From Candidatus Magnetobacterium casense (GTDB lineage: Bacteria > Nitrospirota > Thermodesulfovibrionia > Thermodesulfovibrionales > Magnetobacteriaceae): a DNA stretch of 64,000 nt. The DNA lies in the NCBI RefSeq assembly GCF_000714715.1, contig NZ_JMFO01000018.1:1-64000 (forward strand), in the 5' to 3' direction. The position numbers were made by a program, and so were the translations under genes. The notes beneath the pieces were generated by a model, which ran no database searches, was not told where the DNA came from, and saw nothing but the letters and a program-made list of their open reading frames with translations. Every line of letters starts with the position of its first letter. Position 1 is the stretch's first letter. Positions 16,855-62,098 of this stretch are shown here, piece by piece.

Positions 16855-17216
16855 ATATACTCCTGTGTTATTACTTGTCGTATTCTGGCATAAATTAGAG
16901 GCAACTTGATTGCCAGTTTTCTCAATGCGGTTATGTCTTTCTTTGTTATTTTGTCCAATCGTTTCAGATAACTGTCATTTGAGATTATATTGTTCATTTC
17001 ATCTGTTGGTTTACCTTCAGAGATATCATTAAATGCGAAAAGTAGTTTACATAAACTATGAGAAAGTTTTATCAAATCATCAAAGTCTCCGTTTAGTATC
17101 ATCTTAAAGACGAGAGGTTCTCCTGCTTCATGTATCAACGCTGCGATGCCCTTTTGATTGAGCACCCTTGAAATGTGCAAGGGAAGTGAAAAGTAAGATA
17201 TATGAGCCTCTTGCAA
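16851..17216 (-). CDS. cas8b: Second Cas8b, middle fragment after MITE insertion
   Basis: The first four residues (MQEA) are read from the end of MITE copy 1; native sequence starts at HISYFSLPLHISRVLNQKG. Removing the 122-bp MITE and one 4-bp target duplication (126 bp, 42 codons) joins this frame directly to the N-terminal fragment, giving KKDGDISYFSLPLHIS without a frame change. The two pieces were therefore one gene before insertion. Expression now would depend on re-initiation inside the MITE. Confidence 0.8.
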
Positions 17217-17325
17217 ATCTCAAATCAAGCAATTATAGTGCCCCCAAAATATCATTTAATATCAGCCACTTACAAAATGAGCTTTTTGCTATATTTTACA
17301 TAACATGTACTTTTGCAAGAGGCTC
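17204..17325 (-). mobile_element. MITE copy 1, inserted in the second cas8b
   Basis: 122-bp element bounded by perfect 14-bp inverted repeats GAGCCTCTTGCAAA and flanked by the 4-bp duplication ATAT (17200-17203 and 17326-17329). Its reverse complement is identical to the copies at 18356 and 30033. It has no transposase, so it is non-autonomous. The ends match the IS remnant at 35216. Confidence 0.93.
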
Positions 17326-18355: not shown

Positions 18356-18477
18356 GAGCCTCTTGCAAAAGTACATGTTATGTAAAATATAGCAAAAAGC
18401 TCATTTTGTAAGTGGCTGATATTAAATGATATTTTGGGGGCACTATAATTGCTTGATTTGAGATTTGCAAGAGGCTC
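18356..18477 (+). mobile_element. MITE copy 2, upstream of the second cas operon
   Basis: 122 bp, 14-bp inverted ends GAGCCTCTTGCAAA, 4-bp duplication TATT at 18352-18355 and 18478-18481. It is base-identical to copy 3 and to the reverse complement of copy 1. It lies about 70 bp upstream of the cas6 remnant on the minus strand, where that operon's promoter would be expected, and just before the tRNA-Ser gene. Confidence 0.93.
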
Positions 18478-27944: not shown

Positions 27945-28202
27945 TCAAGATTTTTCCGTAGTGGTTTCGGTTGCGGGTTCGAATTTAAATACCATGTCAT
28001 CATCGGGGATGATGGATGAGACGGCATGCTTGTATATCAGTTGCAGTCGTGCGTCTTTCATCAGGATAACGAAGTTGTCAAAGGCCCTTATCGATCCTTT
28101 CAGTCGAACTCCGTTGGTCAGATACATTGTCACGGGGGTCTTTTCCTTTCTCAACTGGTTCAGAAAGGCGTCCTGCAGGTTAAAGCTCTTGGTTGCTGTC
28201 AT
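27945..28202 (-). CDS. hfq: RNA chaperone Hfq
   Basis: 85 residues with both Sm motifs: [29 protein letters not shown] (Sm1) and FVILMK...[13 protein letters not shown] (Sm2, with YKHAVSSI). It forms a hexameric ring that pairs small RNAs with mRNAs. It lies directly downstream of miaA, the widely conserved miaA-hfq order. TAAGGAGTGAG precedes the start. Confidence 0.97.
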
Positions 28203-28246: not shown

Positions 28247-29755
28247 TTATTTGCAGTTTTTATTCAAGATGGGTTTTATTTTTTCAAGGATATCCTGACT
28301 GTTACTGATGCCGCTGATGTCAATCCAGGAGATGTTGTCTTCGGCGTTGAACCATGTAAACTGGCGTTTAGCGTATCTTTTTGTGGCTTTTTTTATTTCT
28401 CCGACGGCCATATCGAGGGTCATCTCACCACGCAGACATGCCAGTAGCTCCTTGTATCCGATGGCCTGAAGTGGTGTACGTGCAAGTGCAAGCTGCGATA
28501 GCACCCTGACCTCCTGCAGCAGCCCACTACGGAGCATTTCATCCACCCGATGCTGGATCATTGCATATAGCTCCTGACGGTTGCGCCTCAGCCCGATCTT
28601 GATAAACCTGTGTGGCAATGGTCTTGTGCCAGTGTGTTGGATAGCCGACATGGGGCTTCCACTCTTGAGGAACACCTCCACGGCACGCACGATGCGTCTT
28701 GTGTCGTGCGGATCGATGCGCCTGCAGGAAACCGGATCAATACGTCCGAGGTATCTCATCAACCAGCCCGGCCTTTTAGACTCAATTGCCGTGAGTCTGT
28801 CTCTGAGTTGCCAATCGGCCTGGGGGGCGTTCACCAGACCGCGTGTCATCGCCCTAAGGTACAACCCCGTGCCACCGACAACAAGCGGAATACAACCACG
28901 TTTATGCAGGTCGTCGATGACGCTCACCGCATCACTGAGATACCTGCCCGTGCTGTAGTCCTCCCAAGGCTCCACCACGTCTATCATGTGATGTTTAACC
29001 GCACGTTGTTGTTCCGCGTCGGGCTTGGCCGTGCCGATATCCATCCCCTTGTAGACCTGCATCGAATCGGCACTGATTATTTCGGTGCCGAGGTACTGTG
29101 CCATCAATATGGCCACACTGCTCTTGCCCACACAGGTTGGGCCAACCAACGCAACTACGGTATGCCGGGGGATTGCCTCTTCAGCCTCCGACAACAATCC
29201 GCTATCCCCCTTGACAGAGTCATCGGGGTGTTCTACACTATAAGCAAGGAACCTGCTTTGGCCCGTGCGCCTCGCACCATCGACCTGAGTTGTTTTATCC
29301 GCGATGGGTGTATTAGTAAGAGGGACCAACTGCTCAGGGCTGGTCGAAAGGAATGTGCTCCTTTCCCAAAGTAGCTTCTTTCTGACAAGGTTGCTATTAT
29401 TCATAATAAAGGCAGTTACTACCCCATAATAATTACCATGCACCTCACGCCTTAACGCTGTAACGGAAACACGGCATAGTCCGTTTGTTTTTACCAGCAA
29501 TAATCTGCTTTTACCATTATCACGTACCTGCGTAAAATTTTTCGTAATATCTTCAACAAAGGTTATGACGTTGGGGTATCCGGCTTTTCTAATCTCTTGT
29601 CCGTGTCTCTGTGCTATGTGTATCTCGCCGTAGCCATCATTGCCCCTTTGCAGTCTTATCGGTGCAGCCAGGCAATTAATCTGTCCTGCCAATTCCTCAT
29701 CAATGTATCCAAAATCAAAGGAACCATCGCCGGCCTCAACGAAATTCACTGTCAT
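28247..29755 (-). CDS. miaA: tRNA dimethylallyltransferase MiaA with an in-frame N-terminal PBECR-type nuclease module
   Basis: 502 residues. MiaA itself spans about 195-502: [20 protein letters not shown] (P-loop), [53 protein letters not shown], and [11 protein letters not shown] at the end. It adds dimethylallyl to A37 of tRNAs reading U-starting codons. Residues 1-183 are a separate module: [56 protein letters not shown] and KKLLWERS, resembling barnase/colicin-E5/RelE-like domains of phage proteins. TTG codons at 29197 and 29194 could start a normal-length MiaA of about 315 residues. Whether the fusion is translated whole is unknown. Confidence 0.88.
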
Positions 29756-29946
29756 CGCCGCCTTTGCCCCTTGACAGGTTCATCGGGGTGTTCTACAATA
29801 AAGATAGAAGAACTGCTTTGGCCCGTGCGTCTAGCGTTGTTCACCTGAGTTGTAGCGTTTGGAACATCGTTTACTAGTGGGGCCAACTGCTCAGGGCTGG
29901 TCGAAAGGGATTCGCTCCTTTCCCAAAGTAGTTTCTTTTTATCCAC
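29752..29946 (-). pseudogene. C-terminal fragment of a PBECR-type module
   Basis: A 64-codon frame containing only the tail of the module: [45 protein letters not shown]. It lacks the nuclease-like core. Its stop overlaps the start of the next module (ATGA), so the two units are in tandem. The tail is very similar to residues 125-183 of the MiaA fusion protein. Confidence 0.7.
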
Positions 29947-30032: not shown

Positions 30033-30154
30033 GAGCCTCTTGCAAAAGTACATGTTATGTAAAATATAGCAAAAAGCTCATTTTGTAAGTGGCTGATATT
30101 AAATGATATTTTGGGGGCACTATAATTGCTTGATTTGAGATTTGCAAGAGGCTC
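30033..30154 (+). mobile_element. MITE copy 3
   Basis: 122 bp, identical to copy 2; 14-bp inverted ends GAGCCTCTTGCAAA; 4-bp duplication TACT at 30029-30032 and 30155-30158. It is intergenic, between the nuclease-module fragment and the broken protease gene. The flanks at 29947-30032 and 30155-30270 hold no recognisable gene. Confidence 0.93.
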
Positions 30155-30270: not shown

Positions 30271-31314
30271 TTATATAAAAACTTTTGTCCAGGTACTTAT
30301 ATCAACCTCAAGTGGGCGTTGCCCTCTAACAGCATCAATAACATTCTCCCACGAACCTGGGTTTATATAAGAAACGCTTTTAAGAGCATGGTGATATCCT
30401 CTTTCTATGAAATAACTGTATAAGCCATCACGATAATACTTTGATAACGTCCCAGCTTCTCTACAACCAGATGCATCACGGTCTCCCGCTTCAACAGTTT
30501 TCATGAGATACCTGAAACGATCAATCGTATAACGCACGTCATTGTCTTGGTAGTTAGTGTTGTTGTTATCTGAAGGATTTCCTACTAAATTAGGAAAACC
30601 GTTTCTGTCCCAGTATTCTGCAATAATTGTAAATGCAACAGGAACACAACCTGAGTAATTTCTAATATTTGATTTATATGTGCCATAGTCCGTATTACAT
30701 GTATATGGCCAAACAGAAAGGCAGCTTGGGGGAGTGTCAAAACACTTATATGGCCAAAAAGGAAGGCAATAATGAGAACCAAGAGGAACCCAAGTATTCT
30801 CCCATTCTCTGCACTCCTGATTATAATCGGATAACCAACTCACTATGTGATTTTGCTCCCTACTACTTAACTGCTCTGTTTCTTTTCGAAAGCCTTTTAT
30901 TGCACCTGAGCTAACCTCATGGAAAAACTCCTTGGAATATTCCTGTTTGATTAGGGCATTGCGAAAATCTTCCTTCGTCTGATCATCTGCAGATTTTATT
31001 TCAAAATTCACAGGCATTACCGACTGTCCTTTTCCAAAACTCACACTCGATGGAAGTGGCATTAGACTGAGTATATACCAACCATTCTCTTGTTTTACAT
31101 CAGTCAACCTATCAGAATAACCGTTAAACTTAAATCCTATGGCATAGTGTATATGCGAAAGCATAAAGCGCCTGTCAGCCACACTTAATCCTTCTTTTTC
31201 TATCTCTCCCTTCAGAACATCGTTATAAAACGTCTTAAGTTGACTGACGGTAGAAGGTCCAGACGGTGAAAACGATTGTATTACACCTGAGTTCTTGTTG
31301 GCGTAAACCATCAC
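30271..31314 (-). CDS. Cysteine-protease-like (C39/papain-like) protein, frameshifted and probably truncated
   Basis: 347-residue frame whose C-terminal half contains NYSGCVPVAFTIIAEYWDRNG, the nucleophile-Cys motif (GCVPxA...YW) of C39-like and C10-like secreted peptidases. The N-terminal part (SVADRRFMLSHIHYAIGFKFNGY and following) looks like a pro-region. The protein ends at RGQRPLEVDISTWTKVFI without the catalytic His/Asp segment usually found after this point. Its signal peptide is in another frame (31311-31586). Probably a decaying gene. Family assignment is tentative. Confidence 0.55.
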   Translation of the reverse strand: MMVYANKNSGVIQSFSPSGPSTVSQLKTFYNDVLKGEIEKEGLSVADRRFMLSHIHYAIGFKFNGYSDRLTDVKQENGWYILSLMPLPSSVSFGKGQSVMPVNFEIKSADDQTKEDFRNALIKQEYSKEFFHEVSSGAIKGFRKETEQLSSREQNHIVSWLSDYNQECREWENTWVPLGSHYCLPFWPYKCFDTPPSCLSVWPYTCNTDYGTYKSNIRNYSGCVPVAFTIIAEYWDRNGFPNLVGNPSDNNNTNYQDNDVRYTIDRFRYLMKTVEAGDRDASGCREAGTLSKYYRDGLYSYFIERGYHHALKSVSYINPGSWENVIDAVRGQRPLEVDISTWTKVFI

Positions 31315-31586
31315 ATAACCAGCATCCTCCCCTTTAGCAGACTTAACACTTCATAGGCTATCACCACGTCGTTAGAGCTGTAAAACGGTTGCACGTCCAA
31401 AACTGAAGCACCGTTCCAATCTTCATAGCCTTCTTTAGCCTCCTTAGATTTTATGAATCCCTCGGCTATCTTTACCGCATCATCTGAACTGATCAACGCC
31501 GACGTTGTGGCACTATATGCGCCCTGTGGCACCAGTGTCAGCAGCAATGATATCAACAATATCCATTTTCTTGTATTGCTTAACAT
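31311..31586 (-). CDS. Signal-peptide and pro-region start of the same protease, out of frame
   Basis: The ATG at 31586 is preceded by GGGAG. A clear signal peptide WILLISLLLTLVPQGAYS with an A-x-A-like cleavage site is followed by SSDDAVKIAEGFIKSKEAKEGYEDW and YEVLSL. The frame then stops after LLKGRMLVM, while the next frame reads GEDAGYVMVYANKN, the natural continuation. The shift is around 31325-31335, near an AAAGGGG run. One indel separates export signal from enzyme. Confidence 0.6.
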   Translation of the reverse strand: MLSNTRKWILLISLLLTLVPQGAYSATTSALISSDDAVKIAEGFIKSKEAKEGYEDWNGASVLDVQPFYSSNDVVIAYEVLSLLKGRMLVM

Positions 31587-31862
31587 ACAGATATCTCCCA
31601 CAGATTTAATCTAACATCATATAGCCTGTAAAACAGGTCTATATCAAAGATAATCACTTGCTCTTTGCGCAAAGCGGCCATAGTCAGGAGAATACGAAAA
31701 GACTCAAAAACGACAAAACCCACCCCTGCCTGGATGTCAACCTAAGAGACATAAAGCTGGCGGCAGTGTTGAGGTTAGTACAAAGAGAGCTACTGAGGGT
31801 GGTGTTGCTCGTTAAAAAATGAAATTGGTGTTGACAAAATAAGCTAGATGGATTAGACTTAG

Positions 31863-60541: not shown

Positions 60542-61387
60542 ATGAATCCCCTATTCGACCTCAACCGGGTCTGCGTCATGGGCATACTAAACGTAACGCC
60601 GGACTCTTTTTCCGATGGCGGCAAATTCCTTGATAAGACCAGGGCTGTGCAACGTGCGGTTGATATGGTTGCCGAAGGTGCCGACATCATCGACGTTGGC
60701 GGCATTTCGACCCGTCCTGGTTCCGAGGCCGTTGACGTTGAGGAGGAACTCAGGCGTGTGCTCCCTGTTGTTGAGGCTCTCAGCGGCAAAATAGACGTCC
60801 CCGTATCGGTGGATACGTATAGGGCGGTGGTAGCCGAGGCGGCACTAAGTGCCGGTGCCGGTATCATCAACGACATCAGCGCCATGCAGTTCGACCCGGA
60901 GATGGCCGCAGTGGTTGCCAAAAGCGGTGCAGGGATCGTCCTGATGCACATCAAGGGCACCCCCAAAGACATGCAACTCAACCCCGTCTATGGAGACGTC
61001 GTGGAGGAGGTCTACGCTTACCTCAGGCAAAGGAGCGACGCAGCCCAACAGGCCGGTATAGCGGCATCAAGGATCATCATAGACCCCGGCCTGGGCTTTG
61101 GCAAGACCCTGGAGCACAACCTGAGCCTCATCAACAACCTTGGTCGCTTCAAGGACCTCGGACATCCGATTCTGATAGGGCCGTCACGCAAGGCCTTCGT
61201 GGGACATATCACCAACGTAGCCACCCCCGGGGACAGGCTTATGGGCAGCGCTGCCGCAGTTGCCATTAGTGTGTACAACGGCGCTTCAATCGTCAGGGTG
61301 CATGATGTCCGGGAGATGGTGCAGGTTGTACGGGCAGTTGAGGCCATAAAAGCCCAAGTATGTCCCCCCAATGGTCGGGGTTTTTAA
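60542..61387 (+). CDS. folP: Dihydropteroate synthase
   Basis: 281 residues, TIM barrel. Joins p-aminobenzoate to the pterin diphosphate in folate synthesis. Motifs: VCVMGILNVTPDSFSDGGKF (signature 1), DIIDVGGISTRPGSEAV, VPVSVDTYRAVVAEAAL, INDISAMQFDP, IIIDPGLGFGKTLEHNLSL, PILIGPSRKAFV. The ftsH-folP order is common. The C-terminal residues AQVCPPNGRGF lie where the nuclease module begins, so the tail may have been changed by its insertion. Confidence 0.97.
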   Translation: MNPLFDLNRVCVMGILNVTPDSFSDGGKFLDKTRAVQRAVDMVAEGADIIDVGGISTRPGSEAVDVEEELRRVLPVVEALSGKIDVPVSVDTYRAVVAEAALSAGAGIINDISAMQFDPEMAAVVAKSGAGIVLMHIKGTPKDMQLNPVYGDVVEEVYAYLRQRSDAAQQAGIAASRIIIDPGLGFGKTLEHNLSLINNLGRFKDLGHPILIGPSRKAFVGHITNVATPGDRLMGSAAAVAISVYNGASIVRVHDVREMVQVVRAVEAIKAQVCPPNGRGF

Positions 61388-61980
61388 TTAAGAAATACAC
61401 AGGATTAGATACCTTCGTTGAGGCCAGTGATGGCTCCTTTGACTTTGGACGTATTGATGAGGAGGTGGCAAGGCAGATTAAGCGCCTGGCAGCTCCTATA
61501 CGAATGGAAAGGGGTAATGACAACTACGGTGAAATACACATAGAACAAAGACATGGGCAAGAGATTAGAAAAGTCGGCTATAAGGGCGTCAGAGACTTTG
61601 TTGAGGATGTAATAAAGGATTTTACACAAATACGTGAAAGCGGTAACAGATTAGTTCTTGTAAAAGAAAACGGATTGCCTCATGTATCTGCGATACAATT
61701 GATTCCGACTCCAGATGGCAACTATTATAGCGTGGTAACTGCTTACTTGATAAACTCTAAAGCCCTTACCAAAAAGAAACTGCTCTGGGAAAGAAGTCCG
61801 CGGCCGCCTTCTTCTGGTAAACCAGAGCAACCTACCACCCTTCGCAACATCAGCCCCACTGAGGCTCTGGAGGATGATGCTTCGCGGTTAAGCCAAAGCA
61901 GTTCTTCTACCTCTATTGTAGAACAATCCGATGAGTCTGTCAAGGGCAGGCACGGTAGAGGATTCGATGACCTTCGTTGA
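61360..61980 (+). CDS. PBECR-type (barnase/colicin-E5/RelE-like) nuclease module, stand-alone
   Basis: 206 residues. Core: [91 protein letters not shown] and KKKLLWERS. The same domain is fused to MiaA at 28247. Such domains normally sit at the C-terminus of phage structural proteins and are predicted RNases; His in EQRHG is a candidate catalytic residue. A Ser/Pro-rich tail ends in SIVEQSDESVKG. The only available start (61360) lies inside the folP 3' end, so the original start is probably lost. Confidence 0.65.
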   Translation: MSPQWSGFLIKKYTGLDTFVEASDGSFDFGRIDEEVARQIKRLAAPIRMERGNDNYGEIHIEQRHGQEIRKVGYKGVRDFVEDVIKDFTQIRESGNRLVLVKENGLPHVSAIQLIPTPDGNYYSVVTAYLINSKALTKKKLLWERSPRPPSSGKPEQPTTLRNISPTEALEDDASRLSQSSSSTSIVEQSDESVKGRHGRGFDDLR

Positions 61981-62080
61981 GACCGGTGATGGCTCCTTTG
62001 ACCTTGGACGTATTGATGAGGAAGTGGCAAGGCAGATTAAGCGTCTTGTCGCTCCTATCCGAATCTCAACACCGAGATAA
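61967..62080 (+). pseudogene. Truncated second PBECR-type module in tandem
   Basis: 37 residues, MTFVETGDGSFDLGRIDEEV then ARQIKRLVAPIRISTPR, matching the beginning of the preceding module (DTFVEASDGSFDFGRIDEEV). It starts with ATG overlapping the end of the first module and is cut off before the catalytic region. It shows that units are arranged head-to-tail and have been expanding or contracting. Confidence 0.75.
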
Positions 62081-62098
62081 TCAGCTCCGTATTGCAAG

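Follow-up and report, generated by a model that had tools for sequence, protein, structure and literature searches.

A mobile BECR-fold module with a conserved RNA fold at the separated folP-miaA operon of Candidatus Magnetobacterium casense, as indicated by sequence comparison

Sequence comparison indicates that a mobile module with a predicted RNase domain of the BECR fold has inserted into the folP-miaA operon of Candidatus Magnetobacterium casense, that this operon is now separated, and that a conserved RNA fold lies behind the domain. The module is polymorphic in its insertion, and one copy reads in frame into miaA. We infer that the domain has RNase activity and that the RNA is its partner. 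A toxin-like module is here seen to invade housekeeping operons (folP-miaA and nnrD-queE), and its presence differs within one genus. The window analysed here is the whole stretch of 64,000 nucleotides; the genome is 3.4 Mb in 70 contigs and 92% complete.

The fusion is a single uninterrupted frame of 502 codons, starting with ATG, at 29755-28247 on the minus strand. It consists of a BECR-fold domain (residues 1-126), a tail (residues 126-185), and a complete MiaA. The initial annotation had described this open frame across both parts correctly. Its feature is real, with two corrections: the strand is minus, and the unit is larger than was described. The RNA that encodes residues 126-185, the membership in an array, and the separation of folP from miaA by a probable rearrangement were all missing from that reading. 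The IPPT/MiaA domain (PF01715) is found at residues 233-471 (Pfam, E = 2e-82 to 6e-82), and the P-loop GPTCVGKS is present. In G001 and G002, two relatives, MiaA starts a few residues ahead of the P-loop, and the corresponding residues are replaced in the fusion. An internal TTG start at 29197 or 29194 had been proposed. TTG 29197 is favoured and can serve as the start of MiaA, as AAGGGGGA, supplied by the 3' end of the cassette, stands 8 nt upstream of it; plain MiaA would therefore be producible regardless of any fusion protein. From this likely start, which agrees with PF01715 and with the MiaA starts of relatives, miaA spans 28247..29197 (minus). The next gene of the operon is hfq (27945..28202, minus), in the same order as in G001 and G002. 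Here and below, gene names without a Pfam match were read from the sequence. A programmed frameshift was also considered and rejected; the sequence GGGAAAG is present but in the wrong phase by our own reading.

The predicted RNase domain of the fusion (copy c) lies at 29377..29755 (minus). The AF2 model, for which the input was 18 homologues from the window and from viruses, has a pLDDT of 87 and a pTM of 0.83 and shows helices followed by four strands, which is the order of the BECR fold (helix, then four or five strands). Foldseek against PDB returned the CDI toxin of Serratia marcescens BWH57 (7m5f, 3e-4) and BrnT (0.1), then YoeB, RelE, and HigB at weak E-values, and the earlier suggestion of a barnase/colicin/RelE-like module is borne out. 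These are the nearest solved folds, with TM-scores of about 0.3-0.5 and less than 20% identity to the domain; unlike for those toxins, no linked immunity or antitoxin protein was recognised here. Against viral models, the best match was a phage protein annotated as ParB/DdrB-like (2e-5). A profile search of the N-terminal module, as the initial annotation had proposed, matched PBECR3 (PF18812) at residues 45-121 with 15.1 bits (E = 0.022), below the Pfam gathering cut-off of 30 bits. Copy a, described below, scores 20.1 bits (E = 6e-4), also under the cut-off. His46 is invariant, and 18 of 18 alignment rows have Ser or Thr at position 113. Such a configuration of His and Ser/Thr is described for PBECR by Iyer et al. 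2017 (PMC5512222). Copy c has Ala at a position where nearly all relatives have Glu or Gln.

Three relatives of the module are encoded in the same genome (E = 1e-49 to 1e-56). Domain copy a (61411..61785, plus; 56% identical to copy c, E = 6e-56) is located directly behind folP in an ORF at 61360-61980, and the full copy extends over 61411-61956. Another full copy lies within a 2521-aa ORF of contig C15, which also contains LPD38 and a full PBECR3 domain (98.6 bits, adjacent to the module's own domain). This ORF is a phage polyvalent protein as Iyer et al. 2017 (PMC5512222) use the term. Likewise, seven of nine IMG/VR loci with viral homologues have the homologue in an ORF of 2373-3038 aa. The sequence downstream of copy c, GTCAAGGGGGATAGCGG, matches that downstream of copy e in the polyvalent gene, GTCAAGGGGGACAGCGG. 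Copy t (29764..29946, minus) has the tail and no BECR domain. It is directly upstream of the fusion, its stop overlaps the fusion ATG (ATGA, 29752-29755), and its tail is 62% identical to the fusion tail. A head fragment of a further copy is found at 61967..62071 (plus; E = 1.3e-7, residues 3-37). One more copy, at contig position 65192 and thus beyond the window, breaks off near residue 122, at the start of an IS-like end.

The dN/dS of the domain is 0.11-0.27 (0.12-0.25 among the same-genome copies). Together with the relatives in this genome and in 12 others, this shows that the module is not chance coding. The fold, the His/Thr pair, and the copy inside an LPD38/PBECR3 polyvalent protein fit a PBECR-like module as modelled. 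It differs from the PBECR domains that Iyer et al. 2017 (PMC5512222) describe in phage polyvalent proteins in being a detached chromosomal cassette below the Pfam cut-off, and a structured RNA behind the domain was not found described in the part of that paper used here.

A 122-bp MITE-like unit with 14-nt inverted ends (GAGCCTCTTGCAAA) is observed at 30033-30154, 17204-17325, and 18356-18477, and also at contig position 65546. The genome has 64 occurrences of its end sequence, many of them close to the end of a contig, and one marks the position at which the module copy at 65192 is broken off.

Ancestrally, folP was next to miaA on its upstream side. G001, which belongs to the same genus, has the order ftsH-folP-miaA-hfq-surA-like-ftsY, where folP overlaps miaA in GTGA, and several other relatives have what reads as the end of folP ahead of miaA. 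In the window, folP (60542..61387, plus) and miaA (minus) are 32 kb apart, and copies of the module are present at each broken end. Re-inverting the intervening segment would restore the order folP-modules-miaA. An array therefore probably entered the operon and was split later by a rearrangement, this order of events being read from the present arrangement. The comparison with relatives matches the second alternative of the initial annotation, in which a mobile module had come to lie upstream of miaA. A C10-type peptidase-like gene (30271-31601, minus), split into two overlapping ORFs, adjoins the break in the array. Just behind the head fragment, about 28 nt within 62063-62093 resemble miaA codons (the LNSEIVSA region of G001); this is perhaps a scar of an earlier miaA beside folP and is borderline against shuffles.

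Relatives of the module were found in 12 other genomes, every one of the same family. Some lie within giant ORFs; others lie between chromosomal genes and are codirectional with them. The chromosomal sites are nnrD|queE, cobO|HD-domain gene, livG|livF (in frame with LivG), and the position ahead of a Polysacc_synt/MurJ-like flippase gene (in frame). Mobility is clearest at nnrD|queE within one genus. The site is empty in two members (47 nt from nnrD to the QueE core motif in G018 and 58 nt in G013), while it measures 635-712 nt with a module in four congeners (G011, G015, G016, and G019) and contains a remnant in G017. At the sensitivities used, cultured phages, plasmids, and E. coli gave no match, and scans of viral contigs and genome contigs with single proteins were unproductive. 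Rickettsia palindromic elements and other in-frame mobile repeats are structured repeats that enter genes in frame. In the present case, by contrast, the repeat travels with an RNase-like domain and inserts at gene junctions.

The distribution also bears on the first alternative of the initial annotation, a functional tRNA modification-cleavage pair. In such a pair, the BECR domain would cut tRNAs that MiaA recognises or has left unmodified. The frame is indeed open through both domains, and the domain is under purifying selection among its copies. This reading is nevertheless highly improbable, and the comparison with relatives led us to reject it. The fusion, known from one MAG, is absent from every other genome examined; relatives have plain miaA, several directly behind folP, and the module elsewhere, which is the genomic pattern that the annotation had itself named as contradicting a functional fusion. 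The module is also found beside queE, cobO, livG, folP, and the flippase-like gene, unrelated genes with which it is only sometimes in frame, and the site itself shows an array and a rearrangement. By our own count, of about five independent insertions that precede a gene, two continue in its frame, which is near chance. This count, the replaced start of MiaA, and the loss of the conserved Glu/Gln in copy c suggest that the in-frame landing before miaA is probably an accident and that the fusion was not selected as such.

The "linker" of residues 126-185 is, by the nucleotide evidence, encoded by a conserved structured RNA that matches no Rfam family. The element of copy c is located at 29211..29383 (minus), with an outer stem P1 formed by 29366-29374 and 29253-29261. 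A three-stem covariance model, R1, finds the copies of the module: copy c with 73.7 bits (E = 8e-14 in its own genome; calibration of the covariance models was short), copy t (29771-29940) with 91.7 bits, and copy a (61771..61943, plus) with 81.9 bits. Both sides change in 19 of 22 pairs of the R1 alignment, and covariation reaches 0.267, compared with 0.04-0.07 when partners are slid, in an alignment fitted to the model. In a MAFFT alignment, P1 is 84% paired, and a pseudoknot between the P3 loop and a downstream GCTCAGG is 90% paired; four copies show the compensatory change from CCTGAG/CTCAGG to CCAGAG/CTCTGG. Searched one sequence at a time, inverted repeats were mostly not significant against codon shuffles. 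Rfam 15 contains no family that matches at the gathering cut-off and none that is credible at permissive E-values. R1 matches were confined to the family of this genome (31 genomes).

Codons for shared amino acids coincide in 68% of tail comparisons and in 47% of domain comparisons, and one Val codon (GTC) and one Glu codon (GAG) are invariant in 13 of 13. Of eight pairs, seven have a tail dN/dS of 0.46-0.95, and the near-identical pair G016/G019 has 0.21; for divergent pairs, the dS of the tail (0.2-0.5) is below that of the domain (about 0.9-2.2). The low dS with the raised dN/dS of the tail indicates constraint on nucleotides. It is very unlikely that the tail is no more than a low-complexity linker of the kind ordinary in polyvalent proteins, with an RNA signal that merely reflects the relatedness of the sequences. 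The tail is in frame in all polyvalent proteins and the motifs LLWER and GQS recur in the protein, as a linker would have it; the dN/dS values, the invariant codons, covariation far above the slid controls, and free copies outside such ORFs disfavour it. Elements also persist where the domain is not intact: copy t in the window and one locus each in G015 (C245), G017 (C267), and G006 (C170). At the latter three loci (L104, L106, and L100, respectively), the element is kept, while the preceding BECR domain has stops or frameshifts or is gone.

A compact relative of about 75 nt was found through viral homologues identified by protein alone. These come from uncultured viral contigs and are mostly giant ORFs whose tails have the same outer stem, in which LLW codons face GQS codons, for example GCTGCTTTGG/CCAAAGTAGC and GTTGCTCTGG/CCAGAGCAGC. 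Three of them share a core, GAAAGGGCGCAG...CCCCTAGCGC. Used as a DNA pattern, this core was found in 10 IMG/VR contigs, with a BECR domain directly upstream and in frame in nine and the remaining one cut by the contig end. A 21-nt version of the core was found in 18 GTDB genomes (several proteobacterial classes, Geobacter relatives, Verrucomicrobia, and Termititenax), about 12 of which have no BECR domain in the 700 nt upstream, so that the element is free-standing there. P1 of the compact element is 90% paired; exchanges such as CTGCCATGG/CCATGGCAG are complete, and P3 covaries as well. Covariation is 0.360 against 0.04-0.12 for slid partners, in an alignment not fitted to the structure; the search pattern fixes the core and leaves the stems free, and the invariance of the core is thus partly by choice. 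With the compact model, R2, each of 17 among the 18 genomes searched proved to have one to four copies, the exception being the genome of the window. Among 26 loci found by protein, six have the compact form at E < 1e-18, and others have the outer stem only. Most sub-threshold R2 hits at the studied loci fall on long elements, including 29809-29936, 29249-29379, and 61775-61834. This supports, short of proof, a common origin of the compact and the long element. Three free-standing elements (L142, L150, and L155) are near ORFs that read like restriction-modification genes.

The following explanation is, as a whole, the one we hold to be probable. By comparison with relatives, a phage-derived cassette, a PBECR-like RNase domain followed by a folded RNA in the same frame, entered the folP-miaA operon as an array. 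A later rearrangement would have split the array, and one copy now precedes miaA without a stop codon. The fusion would be incidental, with MiaA made from TTG 29197 in any case. The favoured role of the RNA is that of a functional partner of the nuclease: folded in the mRNA of the module itself, it may bind the RNase and restrain or regulate it like a type III antitoxin, and orphan copies of the RNA may act in trans. The copies at both broken ends of folP and miaA, the adjacency of the two genes in G001, the presence or absence of the cassette at nnrD|queE within one genus, and the cassettes at other junctions and in polyvalent proteins are in favour of this course of events.

The weakest step is the RNA as a functional partner of the nuclease, a proposal made by analogy and somewhat doubtful. 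If the RNA held the RNase in check, in cis while the protein is made and in trans as a form of immunity, this would explain why the RNA is placed behind domains of differing subtypes, outlives the domain, and occurs free. Type III toxin-antitoxin systems (ToxIN and CptIN; PMC5086642) would work alike, with an endoribonuclease and a folded pseudoknot RNA. In those systems, the RNA is an array of short repeats 5' of the toxin gene, whereas the element here is single, about 75-170 nt long, and 3' of each domain or inside the coding sequence; tandem short repeats 5' of the gene were not observed. Their toxins differ too. The RNase here is of the BECR type, no other toxin family was matched in Pfam, and ToxN/AbiQ gave no match for copy c or the other copies at E up to 1-10. 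Further points against the explanation as a whole are that free-standing copies have no recognised toxin beside them, that only architecture, context, and weak R2 hits connect the compact RNA with the long one, that some BECR modules have no recognisable element, and that copy c lacks the conserved Glu/Gln. A more specific form, in which phage BECR effectors encode an RNA inhibitor within the coding sequence and bacteria keep free copies as immunity against the injected effector, seems rather unlikely.

The same RNA may instead be an independent cis-acting element, such as a self-cleaving ribozyme, an antiterminator, or a regulator of translation, which polyvalent genes of phages use by chance. 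Like ribozymes and regulatory RNAs, it has a small invariant core, variable covarying stems, a distribution over several phyla, and free copies. Its recurrent position directly behind BECR domains of differing subtype and the lack of any matching Rfam family make this a minority reading, of low probability.

Another reading takes the folded tail as a single-stranded DNA recombination site, comparable to attC at the 3' end of integron cassettes. It would insert BECR modules with a single orientation, both into arrays and at operon junctions, and free copies would be empty or decayed sites. The element is at the 3' end of each module, tandem copies are codirectional, insertion occurs between genes along the operon direction, and modules are shuffled in polyvalent proteins. 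Such a site accounts for the arrays and the orientation, and less well for the three-stem fold, the pseudoknot, and the invariant core, which exceed the needs of a hairpin site. No recombinase was seen at the insertion sites read, and orphan elements are mostly one to four per genome. Integron attC sites have RYYYAAC/GTTRRRY ends and a tyrosine recombinase, while the outer stem here is, by eye, CTGCTTTGG/CCAAAGCAG. We regard a recombination site as unlikely. An RNA unmatched in Rfam 15, located inside phage RNase-like modules and free in several phyla, offers a handle on how RNases are kept harmless during synthesis or, alternatively, on how the modules of polyvalent proteins move.

BECR-type polyvalent modules at five loci (L112, L109, L119, L117, and L108) have different tails that are alike at the 3' end alone, TTCTACTxxTACWRTACCACAACC...TGTCAAGG, which hints at a shared module end.
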